Assembly: GCA_015066205.1 (NCBI GenBank)
Contig: SVOV01000010.1
Location: 1-64,000, forward strand
Reading direction: 5' to 3'
DNA from: Oscillospiraceae bacterium
Lineage (GTDB): Bacteria > Bacillota > Clostridia > Oscillospirales > Acutalibacteraceae
Length of the DNA: 64,000 nucleotides
Below the pieces are notes generated by a model that saw only the letters and a list, made by a program, of their open reading frames with translations, did not search any database and had not been told where the DNA came from. The position numbers and the translations under genes were made by a program. Numbering within the stretch: the stretch's first letter is position 1; each line of letters begins with the position of its first letter. This document shows, piece after piece, positions 41,484 to 47,089 of the stretch.

Positions 41484-41567
41484 GCGAGAGTGGCGGAATC
41501 GGCAGACGCGCACGTTTGAGGGGCGTGTGGTAATCCCGTACGGGTTCAAGTCCCGTCTCTCGCACCA
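41484..41567 (+). tRNA. tRNA-Leu (anticodon GAG)
   Basis: Class II tRNA with long variable arm and encoded CCA. Acceptor GCGAGAG/CTCTCGC, anticodon stem CACGT/GCGTG with loop TTGAGGG (GAG anticodon), T-arm GGGTTCAAGTCCC, ACCA end. It decodes CTC/CTT. Confidence 0.93.
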
Positions 41568-41599
41568 AAAATCGACAGGTTTCGACCTGTCGATTTTTT
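41567..41599 (+). terminator. tRNA-Leu terminator
   Basis: Stem AAAATCGACAGG / CCTGTCGATTTT closed by TTTCGA, then T-run. It is very similar to the tRNA-Gln terminator. Confidence 0.9.
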
Positions 41600-41601
41600 A
41601 T

Positions 41602-41771
41602 CCATTGCGAAAGCAATGGTATATCATCACGCGCAAGCGTGCATCTCATCACCGAAGGTGTATATCATCAGCCGTAGGCTGTATTTTGCTTTCGCAATGA
41701 TGATATACAATTCCTGCGGAATTGATGATATGCAAAACTTCGTTTTGATGATATACACGGCTTTCGCCGTG
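41602..41771. repeat. symmetric hairpin array 1 (spacer TATATCATC / GATGATATA)
   Basis: Eight small hairpins with 3-4 nt loops: CCATTGC-GAAA-GCAATGG (41602), CACGC-GCAA-GCGTG (41628), CACC-GAA-GGTG (41650), CAGCC-GTA-GGCTG (41669), TTGC-TTTC-GCAA (41686), AATTCC-TGC-GGAATT (41709), CAAAAC-TTC-GTTTTG (41733), CACGGC-TTTC-GCCGTG (41756). The spacer reads TATATCATC at 41620 and 41661 (variant ATCTCATC at 41643) and as its inverse GATGATATA at 41699, 41724 (one base shorter) and 41747. Outer spacers pair with outer, inner with inner, so the whole array can fold into one long stem with opposing side hairpins. No coding capacity seen. Confidence 0.8.
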
Positions 41772-41783
41772 ATTTATGCAAGG

Positions 41784-41884
41784 GTTCGAATTCATATGCA
41801 AAACCAGCAAAAATATCTTTTTTGTAGCCCATAGACATATTGAGTATTCATAAGGGATTCTCTTGTGAATACTCAATTTTTTTG
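41784..41884 (+). repeat. direct repeat copy A, ending in a terminator
   Basis: About 92 bp starting GTTCGAATTCATA, then GCAAAAC, then AAATATCTTTTTTGTAGCC, then CATATTGAGTATTCATAAGG. The closing TGTGAATACTC pairs with TTGAGTATTCA and is followed by a T-run, so it is also a terminator. The same order occurs at 44015-44114. Confidence 0.8.
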
Positions 41885-42143
41885 CTTAAAATAGAGTTTT
41901 GTTTTTAATTTATTAGTTTTTATGTATCGTCGCATTCCTTTCGGAGTGCGACTTTTATTTGTCTTTATACGGGTTTTAGGGCTGTCCCTAACAAATAGAA
42001 TTTGTATGCACAAATTCAATGCTTGCTAAGACTTATTCCTACTTTCAATTATAAAGTGTTCGTTTAGCTTTTTCAAAGATGTTGTAATAGGCAGTCTATT
42101 GTGATATAATGATACTACATTATTATAAAGGATGTGAAATGTC
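41885..42143. other. gap with a hairpin and the promoter of the first orphan gene
   Basis: A terminator-like hairpin GTCGCATTCC-TTTC-GGAGTGCGAC-TTTT is at 41929-41956. A promoter TTGTAA (42082-42087), 17 bp, TATAAT (42105-42110) leads into the gene at 42144. No other gene seen. Confidence 0.55.
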
Positions 42144-42740
42144 TTGTTTAAATTCAGAAAAGGTTGTACAGTTCCGTATCCTGAAAGAATTAACGAAGAA
42201 TATGAAATAAATGACAACTGTATAGTTGCAAATATAGGTGCTGATAAAATTGAAATCCTATTGTTTGATTTCATAAAGATTCACAATGAACCATTATTTT
42301 TTATTTTGGAAACCCCTGCAATGAAAAATGACGAAACCGAAATAAAATCAGGTGTAGTGGAAAAATTCCATAAAGATGTCTATTATATTGACGGTTGCAC
42401 TCAGGAAGAAACCTTTGCGATTTTAAACAGAGTCGGCGAACTTCTCATTAATGATGGCTTATCTTCTTTCGGCTTTGGTTGTCATGTTTCACACGATGAA
42501 ATTATGATTGGCAAATACAATGTTGTTACTATTTATTCTCAAGATATCGAAAAATATAATACACTTTTAGAAAAGCACAAAATAAAGCGTGTTGATAAGA
42601 TTGTAACTGCTTGGGATACTTTTACTCAAAACAATCCGGGCAAATCAGAAAAAGTTGAAACGGACGGAAAAGATATTTTTGATATACCAAAAATGTTTGA
42701 AGATTGGGGAATATATCTTGCTGAACAAAGAGAGGATTAA
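42144..42740 (+). CDS. orphan protein of unknown function (first gene between the direct repeats)
   Basis: A 198-residue soluble protein I do not recognise. It is rich in charged residues, without membrane helix, signal or catalytic motif. It contains IDGCTQEETFAILNRVGEL and a glycine-containing SSFGFGCHVS segment. The start is a TTG at 42144, with AAAGGA 12 nt before; the ATG at 42139 is in another frame. Codon usage is more AT-rich than the flanking glycosidase genes, which fits recent acquisition. Its size and acidic, mixed alpha/beta look resemble bacterial immunity or regulatory orphans, but nothing proves that. A terminator and hairpin array 2 follow. Confidence 0.6.
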   Translation: MFKFRKGCTVPYPERINEEYEINDNCIVANIGADKIEILLFDFIKIHNEPLFFILETPAMKNDETEIKSGVVEKFHKDVYYIDGCTQEETFAILNRVGELLINDGLSSFGFGCHVSHDEIMIGKYNVVTIYSQDIEKYNTLLEKHKIKRVDKIVTAWDTFTQNNPGKSEKVETDGKDIFDIPKMFEDWGIYLAEQRED

Positions 42741-42781
42741 TTTTTTAATCCCTAATGAACACTCGGACCAACAAAAAAACA

Positions 42782-42813
42782 CACTTTTGTCTACCGACAA
42801 AGGTGCGTTTTTT
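42782..42813 (+). terminator. terminator of the first orphan gene
   Basis: CACTTTTGTC-TACC-GACAAAGGTG stem (one G-T pair) then CG and six T. Confidence 0.85.
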
Positions 42814-42815
42814 GA

Positions 42816-43006
42816 ATGAGGCGCGCCTGCGGCGCATGAAGACACTTCGCTAATGAAGTAGCCTTCGGCTATGAAGCGTGGCTTTGTCACATGAGGATGC
42901 GCGCTTCGCTTCATGTTCCGCTTGCGGAATGCTTCATGCGAGCGTAGCGAGTGCTTCATATCGCCGTAAGGCGATGCATCATTAAGATACACAAGTCTTC
43001 GCCTTG
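42816..43006. repeat. symmetric hairpin array 2 (spacer ATGAAG / CTTCAT)
   Basis: At least six hairpins, for example GCGCC-TGC-GGCGC (42823), AGCC-TTC-GGCT (near 42860), TTCCGC-TT-GCGGAA (near 42915) and ATCGCC-GTAA-GGCGAT (42960). The spacer ATGAAG occurs at 42836, 42853 and 42871 (variant ATGAGG at 42891), and its inverse CTTCAT at 42909, 42932 and 42954. So three direct then three inverse copies, as in arrays 1 and 3, with a different sequence. Confidence 0.75.
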
Positions 43007-43032
43007 ATTTATATTTAAAGGTGTGGTATAAA
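43004..43032 (+). promoter_or_regulatory. promoter of the second orphan gene
   Basis: TTGATT (43004-43009), 17-bp spacer, TATAAA (43027-43032), directly behind array 2. Confidence 0.55.
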
Positions 43033-43056
43033 GAAATCAAGAAGGGCGGTGAGCAT

Positions 43057-43716
43057 ATGCAATACAATGAACTATCCAACAAAAAGTTTCATTTCATCGT
43101 TACCCCCAACGAACTTCGGGAAATTTTACAAGGATTTCACCATGTTGTTATAAACACGGGTGTGCGAAAAAATTACACAGAAAGCAATCCGAACAATTTT
43201 CTATTTACTTATGATGCCCTATACGAAAAATTAAAAAAAGGCGTTAAATTGATTTGGAAGACAGATTATGAGCTTGCGGATTTTTCCACAGGTATAACCG
43301 CCCACCTTAAAAATTGCATTTATCAGCCGTCTACCAAACTAAGCGTACCAAACTTCGAAGAACCTTGTCCATTTATTGAAACATTTTGCTTCCTACCATG
43401 GAAAGATCAACTTTCAACATCTTTTTCTGTCACGCAATTTCCCGAAAACATATGCGGATTGTGTTTGTATTTTCCCACAAAAATTGAATATGAAAACGAT
43501 ACAAAAAAGCATTCAGCCGGCATCGTGGAATGTTCGAGCTTGGATGATTTTGAAACCTACGAAACGCTGGTTGAAAGGATTAAATCAATTACTCAACTAT
43601 TGAAATTAGACTTTAACGGAAAGGTACGTCGCACTTCTGTAAGAATAAGCGACGAGGCAAAAAAAGATTTTTGTAATTTCTATTTTGTAACCTCAAATGA
43701 TGTAACAATTCTTTAA
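43057..43716 (+). CDS. orphan protein of unknown function (second gene between the direct repeats)
   Basis: A 219-residue soluble protein without recognised domain, signal peptide or membrane helix. Mixed charge, several aromatic residues and scattered Cys; the sequence contains FHFIVTPNELREILQGFHH at the N-terminus and EYENDTKKHSAGIVECSS in the C-terminal third. ATG 43057 follows GGCGGTGAG; an earlier in-frame GTG at 43021 overlaps the promoter. It has no similarity I can see to the first orphan protein. Both lie between direct repeats A and B, followed by their own terminators and arrays. Confidence 0.6.
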   Translation: MQYNELSNKKFHFIVTPNELREILQGFHHVVINTGVRKNYTESNPNNFLFTYDALYEKLKKGVKLIWKTDYELADFSTGITAHLKNCIYQPSTKLSVPNFEEPCPFIETFCFLPWKDQLSTSFSVTQFPENICGLCLYFPTKIEYENDTKKHSAGIVECSSLDDFETYETLVERIKSITQLLKLDFNGKVRRTSVRISDEAKKDFCNFYFVTSNDVTIL

Positions 43717-43787
43717 TTTTCAATGGTAACAGTTGACCTTTTGTTCGGTTTTACCTTGATTTTTGACCTTTTATCACGTTTAAGGCA

Positions 43788-43821
43788 GAAAAAGCGACTT
43801 GTTTCAACAAGTCGCTTTTTC
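43788..43821 (+). terminator. terminator of the second orphan gene
   Basis: Perfect 16-bp stem with GCGACTTGTT / AACAAGTCGC at its core and a 2-nt loop, flanked by A5 and T5. It begins 72 bp past the stop codon. Confidence 0.85.
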
Positions 43822-43824
43822 AAC

Positions 43825-44011
43825 TAAATCCACCCTTACGGGTGGGTGAAATATTGCTTCGCAATGTGAAATACGCCTGCGGCGTGTGAAATTCGCCTCG
43901 AGGGCGAGTGGTGGATTTAATTTCAGTTGATGCGTAAACATCAAATTTCACAATTCACAAAGTGAATTATTTCACCGTGTGCGCAAGCGAACGATTTCAC
44001 TAAATAAAGTG
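43825..44011. repeat. symmetric hairpin array 3 (spacer GTGAAAT / ATTTCAC)
   Basis: Hairpins CCACCC-TTAC-GGGTGG (43830), ATTGC-TTC-GCAAT (near 43853), ACGCC-TGC-GGCGT (near 43873), TCGCC ... GGCGA (near 43893), TTGATG ... CATCAA (near 43927), AATTCAC-AAA-GTGAATT (near 43952) and a final TCACT ... AGTGA. Spacer GTGAAAT at 43846, 43866 and 43886 (20-bp steps), inverse ATTTCAC at 43945, 43969 and 43994. In addition TAAATCCACC (43825) pairs with GGTGGATTTA (43910-43919) to enclose the left half. Confidence 0.8.
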
Positions 44012-44014
44012 AGA

Positions 44015-44114
44015 GTTCGAATTCATACGCAAAACTGCCGAAAATATCTTTTTTGTAGCCTCTATACATATTGAGTATTCATAAGGAAGCAAGCCTGTGA
44101 ATACTCTTTTTTTT
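44015..44114 (+). repeat. direct repeat copy B, ending in a terminator
   Basis: Same layout as copy A at 41784: GTTCGAATTCATA, GCAAAAC, AAATATCTTTTTTGTAGCC, CATATTGAGTATTCATAAGG, TGTGAATACTC and a T-run. It starts 2231 bp after copy A. Confidence 0.8.
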
Positions 44115-44803: not shown

Positions 44804-47089
44804 ATGAGCAAGGAAAACAGAAAATACACGGTACCGACTTTTGTTGCTGTTGCATTTATGTTTGTGTGGATTATTCTTACAGTATTTCTTACAGGTGGGC
44901 GTGAAATTTCAGATTTTACAGAACAGGATAAAACAATATTTTCAGTTTTTATAATACTTGAGGTTTTAACTCTTGCCTTTATTATAATTTGCCTTATCAA
45001 AGCACAAAAGCTTTCTGATACAAAGAGTAATAATATAATTAATAATATCAATAAGACTGTTGATAAACGCCACCTTGTAATTAATGTATCATCCTTTGCA
45101 GCACTGACTGTAACTTTGATTTTGGGTATTTTTACTGAAAAGTACATAGATGATGATTACTTAAGCAATATTTCTGGAATTATCTGTGCTATTGCTTTAT
45201 GTTTGCCTATCTTATTTTTAATATTAAATGTAATTATTAAGCTTATTTATAAAAAACGACTCGGCAAAAGATCTTTTGCCGAAAATCAGCAGTTCTTGTT
45301 TTCACACCGAGATGACAGCAAAGAAAGATCAAAGAAAAAGCTGTATATATTGAAAATACTTATTATAATCAATGATATTTACAGCATATTCCTTTCTGTT
45401 TGTGCCTTTGTTTCGGCCTTTTTCTCCGGTATTGTCAGTGATGGCAGATATACCTGCGGTCTGTTGTTAGTTTGTTATATGGTTCTGACTGCTGCCACAT
45501 TAAGAATTCGACTTGAGCCCTCTGACGGGATATTTGAGGATGATAAGACTTATGTTAATGAAAATGATTATCCTGCTCTTTATAATTTAGCAAAAAAAGC
45601 GGCAACAGTAACGGGATGCGACGGGGCAATTAAAATAGCTATACTTGATGATTTTAACGCAGGTGCAGCTATATTTAATAATACAATTTCAATTCAGCTT
45701 GGTGCACTGTTATTAAATGTTTTATCTGAAGACGAGGTCTATTGTGTTTTATTACACGAATTTTTCCATATAAAAGACGAGTTGAATCATAGAAGAATTA
45801 GTAAATTCAATCGGTATGTTATTGACTTCCAAAACAATGAAATTTCAAATTTCTATTCAAATATTACCAAGCACCTTTTCTCTTTTCTTGATATTTATTA
45901 TAATTTGCAGTACAATCTGTACTTATATTCTGTTTCATTGTCTCGTGAATTTGCTGCAGACAAAAATATGGCAATTTACGGCGACAGCAAAACTGCCGCT
46001 TCTTCGTTAATAAAAATAAAATATTATGAACTTTATGATTGGGAAAAAGGTACTTATGACACAACCTGTAATTTTGAGACAGCGGAATACGATACCGATT
46101 CTTTGAATACAGAGCTTCAAAGGTTTAAAGAAGCTGTCAGTCTTAATGCAGAGAAATGGAACGGGCTTATCAACAATGAAATCCTTTCTCGCAGTGCATC
46201 ACACCCTACATTAAAAATGAGACTTGAAAACCTGGGAATCGATGAAATCATAACATTGAAGATTGAAAGCTCGGCGGAATATATTGCAGATTGTGAAAAA
46301 GCGATTATATATGTAAGCTCGTTAATTGCTGAACAGAGTAAAGATTCATACGAAGAATACCGTAAATATTATTATATTGAATCAAAAGAATTAGTTGAAA
46401 AATGGGAACAGAACGGAAGAACTGTAATTGCTGAGGAATACAGAGATATCTGCGATGCGCTTCGCCGTTTAGGAAGAAATTCCGAAGCTCTTGAATTATG
46501 CGAAAATGCTATCAAGCTGCTTGATGATGTTGGCTCGTGCTATGCGTACTTCGTAAAAGGATGCTTTTTGCTTCATTCCTTTAATGAAGCTGGTATTGAA
46601 TATATTTATAAGGCTATTGAGAACAACCATAACTATGTTGATGAAGGTCTTTCGGAAATCGGCAGTTTTTGCTGTCTTACAGGACAAGAGGATCAATTGG
46701 AAATATATCGTGAAAGAGCAATTGCTTTAACCGAGGAAAATAAAACTCATTCCGAAGCTTCCGTTCTTAATAAAAAAGACAGGCTTTCAACAGAGTCGCT
46801 TCCTGACGGAATGTTAGATGATATACTTTCCCACATTACATCGTCATATTGTGAAAATATCGAAAAGATCTATCTGGTAAGAAAAACCATAACTGATGAT
46901 TTCTTTTCAAGTGTATTTGTCATAAAAATATCTTCTGACACTGATGATGATATCAGGTATAAAATTTTACAAAAAGCTTTTAACTATCTTGATACTTGCA
47001 GTGAGTGGCAGTTTTCTTTGTTTGATTATGACGATGTTAAGGATGTTAAAATAGAGCTAATACCCGATAGTTGTGTTTATTCAAAATAG
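44804..47089 (+). CDS. multi-pass M48-like zinc metallopeptidase with C-terminal helical repeats
   Basis: A 761-residue protein. About six transmembrane helices (12-30, 47-66, 95-111, 124-149, 184-210, 218-236) precede the peptidase domain. The zinc motif is VLLHEFFHIKDE (His318, Glu319, His322), and a downstream SREFAADKNMA gives the third ligand Glu382; the pair matches the M48/HtpX group. From about 490 onward the sequence is helical with TPR-like repeats, for example ALRRLGRNSEALELCENAI, a combination not usual for HtpX. GGAGG precedes the ATG. It may cleave or quality-control membrane proteins; its partner, if any, is the small membrane protein upstream. Confidence 0.82.
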   Translation: MSKENRKYTVPTFVAVAFMFVWIILTVFLTGGREISDFTEQDKTIFSVFIILEVLTLAFIIICLIKAQKLSDTKSNNIINNINKTVDKRHLVINVSSFAALTVTLILGIFTEKYIDDDYLSNISGIICAIALCLPILFLILNVIIKLIYKKRLGKRSFAENQQFLFSHRDDSKERSKKKLYILKILIIINDIYSIFLSVCAFVSAFFSGIVSDGRYTCGLLLVCYMVLTAATLRIRLEPSDGIFEDDKTYVNENDYPALYNLAKKAATVTGCDGAIKIAILDDFNAGAAIFNNTISIQLGALLLNVLSEDEVYCVLLHEFFHIKDELNHRRISKFNRYVIDFQNNEISNFYSNITKHLFSFLDIYYNLQYNLYLYSVSLSREFAADKNMAIYGDSKTAASSLIKIKYYELYDWEKGTYDTTCNFETAEYDTDSLNTELQRFKEAVSLNAEKWNGLINNEILSRSASHPTLKMRLENLGIDEIITLKIESSAEYIADCEKAIIYVSSLIAEQSKDSYEEYRKYYYIESKELVEKWEQNGRTVIAEEYRDICDALRRLGRNSEALELCENAIKLLDDVGSCYAYFVKGCFLLHSFNEAGIEYIYKAIENNHNYVDEGLSEIGSFCCLTGQEDQLEIYRERAIALTEENKTHSEASVLNKKDRLSTESLPDGMLDDILSHITSSYCENIEKIYLVRKTITDDFFSSVFVIKISSDTDDDIRYKILQKAFNYLDTCSEWQFSLFDYDDVKDVKIELIPDSCVYSK

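Follow-up and report, generated by a model that had tools for sequence, protein, structure and literature searches.

Symmetric hairpin arrays at tRNA 3' ends in gut Clostridia: a probable DNA-level module of IVP-encoding mobile elements

Three hairpin arrays that share one symmetric plan lie between a leucine transfer RNA (tRNA) gene (tRNA-Leu (gag); 41484..41567, + strand) and an M48-peptidase-like gene at 44804 in a 64,000-nucleotide stretch of an Oscillospiraceae bacterium (GenBank assembly GCA_015066205.1, contig SVOV01000010.1, positions 1 to 64,000; hereafter the window). We propose, with a probability of about 0.6, that such arrays are a DNA-level, cis-acting module of mobile elements that encode an IVP protein (PF05635), and that compact copies were moved in trans without the gene. 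The evidence comes from the arrays themselves, from empty and alternative alleles at tRNA genes, from a conserved right end and from the position of arrays upstream of IVP genes. The window is one contig of a 2.71-Mb draft genome of 83 contigs that is ~85% complete, which we refer to as the own genome. Both the insertion at tRNA ends and the IVP link lay beyond what the initial annotation of this DNA could see.

Results

In each array a 6-mer occurs three times directly in the left half and three times inverted in the right half, namely TCATCA in array 1 (41602..41775; spacer TATATCATC / GATGATATA), ATGAAG in array 2 (42816..43010; spacer ATGAAG / CTTCAT) and GTGAAA in array 3 (~43821-44011), arrays 1 and 2 being listed without a strand. 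The plan of three direct and three inverted copies was reproduced by 0 of 300 dinucleotide shuffles for each array and by 0 of 305 other 200-bp pieces of the window, confirming that the symmetry described in the initial annotation is real and is not equalled by shuffled sequence. That annotation had also read the spacers as three direct and three inverted copies, which holds for the 6-mer in all arrays but not throughout for the longer spacers; array 1 carries CATCTCATC where one TATATCATC is expected. Perfect hairpins (stem of at least 5, loop of 3-4) number 6, 4 and 4 in arrays 1, 2 and 3 compared with shuffle means of 0.53, 0.58 and 0.47, and the RNA fold z-scores are -6.67, -3.88 and -6.12, respectively. 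Array 2 is the least regular of the three, and its 4 hairpins were also reached by 1 of 300 shuffles. In the polarity of its units, array 1 is the reverse of arrays 2 and 3, and the loops left of the centre are mostly GNA-type in array 1 and TNC-type in arrays 2 and 3. In addition, the first hairpin could pair through its 5' arm with the centre of the array, and the left half of the array could then close as a multibranched loop.

The left half of array 3 (43821..43897, + strand) matches the Rfam family Gut-1 (RF01706), with its three hairpins joined by GUGAAAU linkers, over the full length at 90.6 bits (gathering cut-off 50), and the right half (43915..44002, - strand) carries a Gut-1-like match on the other strand at 42.9 bits, below that cut-off. 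Array 1 showed a weak match on the minus strand (41616-41691, 30.9 bits, also under the cut-off of 50) that covers half of it, and array 2 gave no match up to E 0.01. An excerpt of Weinberg et al. 2010 (PMC2864571) presents Gut-1 as a noncoding RNA and tabulates it as certainly an RNA, known from human gut DNA only; the accession RF01706 was found in no other open-licence paper. The earlier view that no described element has this plan therefore fell, since half of array 3 belongs to a published family, and the expectation that similar arrays exist in other genomes was borne out: 56 of 117 genomes searched, the window's genome included, contain a Gut-1 match over the cut-off, and these matches fall in several families of the order. 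In 14 control genomes no match passed the cut-off, and 2 of them had a match below it. With 150 of 495 candidates scored, there are 82 own-genome matches up to E 0.01, 36 of them over the cut-off, and several stand in plus/minus pairs. The top-scoring loci lie 30-43 nt 3' of a tRNA or transfer-messenger RNA (tmRNA) gene in 10 of 30 cases in the own genome and in 15 of 29 in other genomes. These data are strong evidence that Gut-1 is half of a two-sided palindromic array inside an insertion.

The insertion itself was recognized by comparison with an empty site. In the same-genus genome G013 (locus L114), the tRNA-Leu gene (92.9% identity over 84 bp) is directly joined to the flank (94.3% over 122 bp) that lies 270 bp later in the window, such that the insert, element 1 (41568..41837, + strand), is exactly 270 bp and begins directly 3' of the CCA of the tRNA called by ARAGORN; its position is ambiguous by a shared CA, which is the most that the junction has in common. 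Element 1 consists of a terminator-like hairpin with a T-run (41568..41599, + strand), array 1 and a conserved right end (41782..41837, + strand; GGGTTCGAATTCATATGCAAAA ... AAAAATATCTTTTTTGTAGCCCATAGACA); terminator-like hairpins here and below were called from sequence and hairpin tiling, without a terminator scan. Ten relatives could be read downstream at tRNA-Leu (gag), and the window's flank is kept only in G013; the flanks of the other relatives differ, indicating that the site is variable. At a tRNA-Arg locus, the flanks on both sides agree between the own genome (L007) and genome G017 (L364), with 90.6% identity over 149 bp and 95.0% over 577 bp, but the inserts differ, a TCATCA-type array without an IVP gene versus a GTGAAAT-type array with one. 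Four relatives could be read at another tRNA-Leu gene of the own genome (contig C6), three without an array (L295, L296, L298) and one with (L300), and past the terminator their flanks did not align with that of the own genome. A search for an empty tmRNA site in the genus of genome G081 returned G081 itself only. Overall, the evidence that array elements insert at tRNA ends is strong. Foldback mini-elements with an inverted and a direct copy of a tRNA 3' end were also seen right behind tRNA genes (L104 in G004, L110 in G012, L131 and L242); in L104 the direct copy is 22 bp, exact, and lies ~120 bp behind the tRNA.

The right end, ~60 bp long, allowed further copies to be collected. Its pattern occurs in at least 115 stretches of named genomes, and 80 named stretches among those listed come from uncultured bacteria, mostly Oscillospiraceae or Clostridia and many from ruminant gut. 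The exact pattern was present in 24 of 394 genomes of the order compared with 0 for a reversed control pattern. Where at least 700 nt upstream could be read, a tRNA or tmRNA lay 130-400 nt upstream of 44 of 81 right ends. Among 136 right ends, 56 had a left boundary within 600 bp, 17 had one farther away, 55 had none in the locus and 8 fell in neither count. The 56 compact elements so defined span 192-501 bp, start after CCA (52) or ACA (4), and are bounded on the left by a tRNA or tmRNA (51) or by another right end (5). Right-end tips are mostly GACA (77) or GCCA (22). Since the right end contains the tRNA T-arm-like GTTCGAATTC and has CA at its tip, it may, judged from its sequence, mimic a tRNA end, which would explain tandem insertions. 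With regard to ends of the type found in miniature inverted-repeat transposable elements, the right end is conserved and the left end of compact copies shows a terminator-like hairpin only, with which the copies displayed open; an inverted right-end copy stands near the left end in L197 and L131. Four compact copies (L163, L176, L188, L192) match the left end of an IVP cassette over 157-163 nt at 93-94% identity. Carriage by phages or plasmids was rejected: the right end had 0 exact matches in viral_contigs, and element 3 of the window (43788..44068) had no blastn match at E 1e-3 in phages or plasmids.

The plan test was applied to the 51 of 56 compact copies shorter than 350 bp. In 49 of 51 (a count made without a shuffle control), a word was present two or more times directly and two or more times inverted, and the words form about seven classes, in agreement with the earlier claim that the plan is conserved and the sequence is not. 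The stem between first-hairpin arm and array centre reached at least 8 in 49 of 51, compared with 24 of 510 single-base shuffles, and in some copies this stem is the spacer itself. Within one array the spacers are constant and the hairpins variable; the TTCACT and TTCTCT classes have few local hairpins. In arrays with at least three copies, left-hand spacers are 19.7 +/- 2.7 bp apart and right-hand spacers 23.9 +/- 2.6 bp, and they show no phasing to a 10.5-bp period. Two variants were noted besides. Contigs C17, C65, C74, C77 and C81 of the own genome carry one-directional hairpin arrays with mixed spacers, some GTGAAAT and then TGATGATAT (L012, L015, L017, L021, L022 and L024); several lie at contig ends, where they are probably repeats that break the assembly. 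The array at a tRNA-Pro gene (L049, contig C4) has an extra hairpin-rich piece in its centre, and by eye a similar-looking piece occurs in L059.

No window gene near the arrays matched PF05635 in a Pfam scan; across the genus, this family gave 76 hit rows in 24 of 26 genomes. Seventy rows were fetched, 69 of which had 250 nt upstream, and 64 entered the tree (filter 80-200 aa). The 330 nt upstream contained a word present two or more times both directly and inverted for 41 of 69 IVP genes, versus 8 of 68 for the 330 nt downstream (Fisher p 4e-9), and at three plus three copies the numbers were 30 and 3. A tRNA lay within 500 nt upstream of 22 of the 41 array-linked genes and of 0 of the 28 others (p 5e-7). 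Of the 41 array-linked loci, 19 have a promoter-like pair in the gap that separates the array from the IVP gene, compared with 138 of 820 shuffles (p 1e-5). In the tree, a single clade of 37 rows (support 94/95) takes in most of the array-linked rows and also two rows without an array; two array-linked rows, L348 and L374, lie outside. The spacer classes GTGAAAT, GTGATG and TGATGATA each required one change on this tree, RTGAAG two, TGATAT three, and AATGAA and the class 'other' five each; for all classes together there were 14 changes compared with a shuffled mean of 35.0, and 0 of 200 shuffles were as low. For each spacer type of the window, relatives linked to an IVP gene exist within the same genome or genus: TCATCA in L354, L343 and L344, ATGAAG (the array 2 type) in L355 and L357 of the own genome, and GTGAAAT in L358-L364. 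As read from these sequences, spacer type appears to track IVP lineage largely, if imperfectly, and there is good support for array and IVP gene forming one module.

According to excerpts of the sources, IVP resembles Avd of diversity-generating retroelements (PMC10053308) and an IVP is listed among proteins linked to CRISPR (clustered regularly interspaced short palindromic repeats) adaptation modules (PMC10910872). Reverse transcriptase (PF00078) was hit in 16 of 26 genus genomes and had no hit in the 85%-complete own genome, in G006 or in G017, the latter two carrying IVPs and Gut-1 matches. Reverse transcriptase as IVP partner was rejected on the lack of a hit in the own genome.

We examined whether the folded form is kept in RNA or in DNA by means of mismatches inside the stems. 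In 215 distinct hairpins, the internal mismatches were 12 G-T, 14 A-C and 19 other. A first count had given a strong G-T excess on the TNC-loop strand, which would have meant RNA-level selection; the excess was traced to the spacer GTGAAAT abutting each hairpin and was gone when internal columns only were counted. RNA-fold selection is therefore not supported. Together, the absence of a G-T excess and the promoter-like pairs before IVP genes point, at the level of sequence, to DNA rather than RNA, and the initial claim that the folded form is selected in DNA or RNA is thereby narrowed toward DNA. Spacers that are not phased with the helix make simple binding to a single helical face less likely, and folded DNA would be the likelier substrate.

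The right end also closes larger cassettes. A 1.06-kb cassette with IVP gene and cargo is found at a tRNA-Gln (L130) and at a tmRNA (L227) with 88% identity, the match beginning at CCA, and a relative lies at a tRNA-Arg (L218). An IVP-like protein is encoded in five cassettes (these three, L157 and L177), PF05635 being confirmed for the two that were scanned. The left-end plan test (score of at least 2) was positive for 5 of 5 IVP cassettes and for 3 of 12 other gene cassettes, the latter on low-complexity TTTTTA. Another four, located at tRNA-Ser, Leu, Tyr and Gln (L150, L172, L195 and L208), have their left ~1350 bp, including a DDE transposase, in common; their cargo varies and is by eye a trypsin-like protease, a caspase-like protein and restriction-modification-like genes; L168 is a deletion copy at a tmRNA. 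This family combines a constant transposase module with a variable promoter region and cargo and ends in the same right end as the hairpin-array elements, and its left end was also seen in L178 and L167. A 536-aa large serine recombinase is whole in L146 and L197 and present as its 3' part in L133 and L210, ending 53 bp ahead of the right end in L146, L133 and L210.

None of the recombinases tried qualified as the mover. The DDE transposase, constant in its four cassettes, is absent from IVP cassettes and compact elements, and the large serine recombinase, which in L197 lies upstream with a differing 3' flank, looks like cargo. A tyrosine recombinase partner was rejected as well: PF00589 has four hits in the own genome, one below cut-off, which are not beside arrays, and no Gut-1 hit stands closer than 10 kb to any of them on its contig. 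A partial test of the gene cassettes by tblastn with six tyrosine recombinases matched only L175 and L206 of 115 right-end loci. The compact elements, at their size, are too small for a recombinase gene.

Discussion

We read the arrays as a cis-acting DNA module of IVP-encoding elements. IVP would recognize the hairpin/spacer array, most likely in an extruded or single-stranded form, and would help a recombinase, itself not found, to attach the element at the CA of a tRNA 3' end or of another right end. The palindromic plan would give the same structure on both strands and so would work whichever strand is exposed. Compact copies such as elements 1 and 3 may have lost the IVP gene and been moved in trans.

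Several findings weigh against this reading. No recombinase was found that all of them share; some gene cassettes have a DDE transposase, others an IVP or a serine recombinase, and others none of these. Of 69 genus IVP genes, a single one is followed by the right end (within ~1.5 kb, less at contig ends), so that compact and IVP elements may be moved differently, and 28 of 69 IVP genes have no upstream array. The agreement of IVP and spacer could be plain co-inheritance; near-copies boost the clustering on the tree, which has few columns and on which the AATGAA and 'other' classes are scattered, and the downstream control for IVP genes is often coding sequence and hence imperfect. The top Gut-1 loci are not directly behind a tRNA in 20 of 30 cases in the own genome and 14 of 29 elsewhere. 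The G-T/A-C test is small, allows one mismatch per hairpin and includes a few terminator or tRNA-arm hairpins. Finally, much of the evidence comes from draft metagenome assemblies, which are prone to break at repeats.

A wider form of the proposal, which we put forward only tentatively, is a cassette system on a tRNA 3'-end platform, in which IVPs, as four-helix proteins, read folded, strand-symmetric hairpin arrays, the spacers act as a specificity code, and gene cassettes, with cargo that by eye is restriction-modification-like, caspase-like or other, are delivered to CCA without a reverse transcriptase or a known integrase. If true, IVP proteins would have a function, and Gut-1, so far an orphan RNA, would be understood as a mobility signal.

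Among the alternatives, the array may be an operator and insulator for the neighbouring IVP gene's own promoter, mobility coming from something else. The promoter-like pair that follows the array in 19 of 41 loci would suit this, as would short words repeated in direct and inverted orientation and a spacer type that follows the IVP tree. However, the left and right spacer distances show no helical phasing, the hairpins between sites would be unnecessary for an operator, and arrays are kept in compact elements too small for a gene; we regard this explanation as unlikely.

Rather less probable is the view that Gut-1 is indeed a structured noncoding RNA, in which case an array would consist of two Gut-1 RNA genes that face one another. 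The tabulation of Gut-1 as certainly RNA in the excerpt of PMC2864571 speaks for it, together with the strong folding of arrays 1 and 3 and the 36 of 82 own-genome matches that pass the Rfam cut-off. On the other hand, internal stem positions have no excess of G-T mismatches, the Gut-1 match is one half of a two-sided array whose halves lie on opposite strands, and the plan recurs with other spacers and stems. Terminator-like hairpins before arrays, promoter-like pairs behind IVP-linked arrays, and empty and alternative alleles likewise count against RNA genes.

Two further explanations are very improbable. Spread by a Y1 (RAYT or IS200) transposase, as for REP (repetitive extragenic palindromic) sequences and BIMEs (bacterial interspersed mosaic elements), would fit the short hairpins in inverted pairs, the high copy number per genome and the two Y1 gene loci of the own genome, but inspection by eye of both loci (L066, L067) with 1.5 kb of flank on each side revealed no array, no Y1 gene was seen beside arrays, many copies sit at tRNA ends, and within an array it is the hairpins that vary and the spacers that are constant. 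Template switching and repair at terminators close to tRNA genes, leaving functionless by-products, would account for short-loop palindromes, for a mismatch balance favouring neither strand and for the foldback elements copying tRNA ends, but hardly for one element with sharp ends at different tRNA and tmRNA genes, a right-end pattern whose reversed control is absent from the order, or the ordered link to IVP genes.

The proposed module of IVP elements resembles several known systems in part. In 23S rRNA intervening sequences, which lie inside 23S rRNA and are accompanied by the IVP protein, a four-helix bundle, a stable RNA gene likewise carries an insertion in which an IVP gene adjoins a structured region of inverted repeats; here, an IVP gene within the element was found for 41 of 69 genus IVP loci and, by Pfam scan, for two of five look-alike cassettes. 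The array copies with known boundaries differ in lying behind a tRNA, a tmRNA or a right end and not inside 23S rRNA, a symmetric hairpin array precedes the IVP gene, and many copies have no gene. With diversity-generating retroelements they share, as far as the excerpted source goes, a small IVP-related protein, but three genomes, the own one among them, lack a reverse transcriptase hit. Tycheposons, which are tRNA-targeted integrative elements, are similar in 3'-end insertion, gene cargo, tandem insertions and small copies; in contrast, the compact copies show one conserved end, share ~2 bp at the junction and have no integrase inside. Integron cassettes also have a conserved 3' site and stand, some in tandem, behind a fixed platform, whereas the platform here is a tRNA 3' end, no tyrosine recombinase gene was found beside own-genome arrays, and attC boxes were not recognized by eye in the right end. 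The array repeats, 6-10 bp words with palindromes between them, do not fit the identical repeats and unique spacers of CRISPR. Nothing on such elements was found in open-licence papers.

Should the arrays act as a DNA module, a member of an Rfam noncoding RNA family would be re-filed as half of a DNA insertion module, and the poorly understood IVP family would be tied to a particular DNA structure whose spacer code can be tested. Mobile cassettes, some with cargo that by eye is restriction-modification-like, would be placed behind tRNA genes of uncultured gut Clostridia, and arrays with drifting sequence and a fixed plan would offer a direct test case for structure-based DNA recognition.

Other features of the locus

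Element 3 (+ strand) comprises a terminator-like hairpin, array 3 and a conserved right end (44013..44068, + strand), its putative left boundary being placed from ..GGCA|GAAAA. Array 2, for which no right end was found, is preceded by a terminator-like hairpin with a T-run (42782..42813, + strand). Two open reading frames on the + strand are possible cargo genes, one of 198 aa between the elements (42144..42740) and one of 231 aa directly after array 2 (43021..43716), neither with a Pfam match up to E 0.01. The flank 3' of element 1 (41838-41956) recurs 3' of element 3 (44069-44114), the second copy being 83.7% identical over 49 bp to the same G013 flank, and the stretch between the two flank copies may be a tandem of cassettes behind tRNA-Leu.

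Elsewhere in the own genome (L253; contig C32, 3500-10500), a tyrosine recombinase lies beside two similar large open reading frames in opposite orientation, and the locus looks invertible; the recombinase with one such large reading frame is present in G019 (L254) and G017 (L255).

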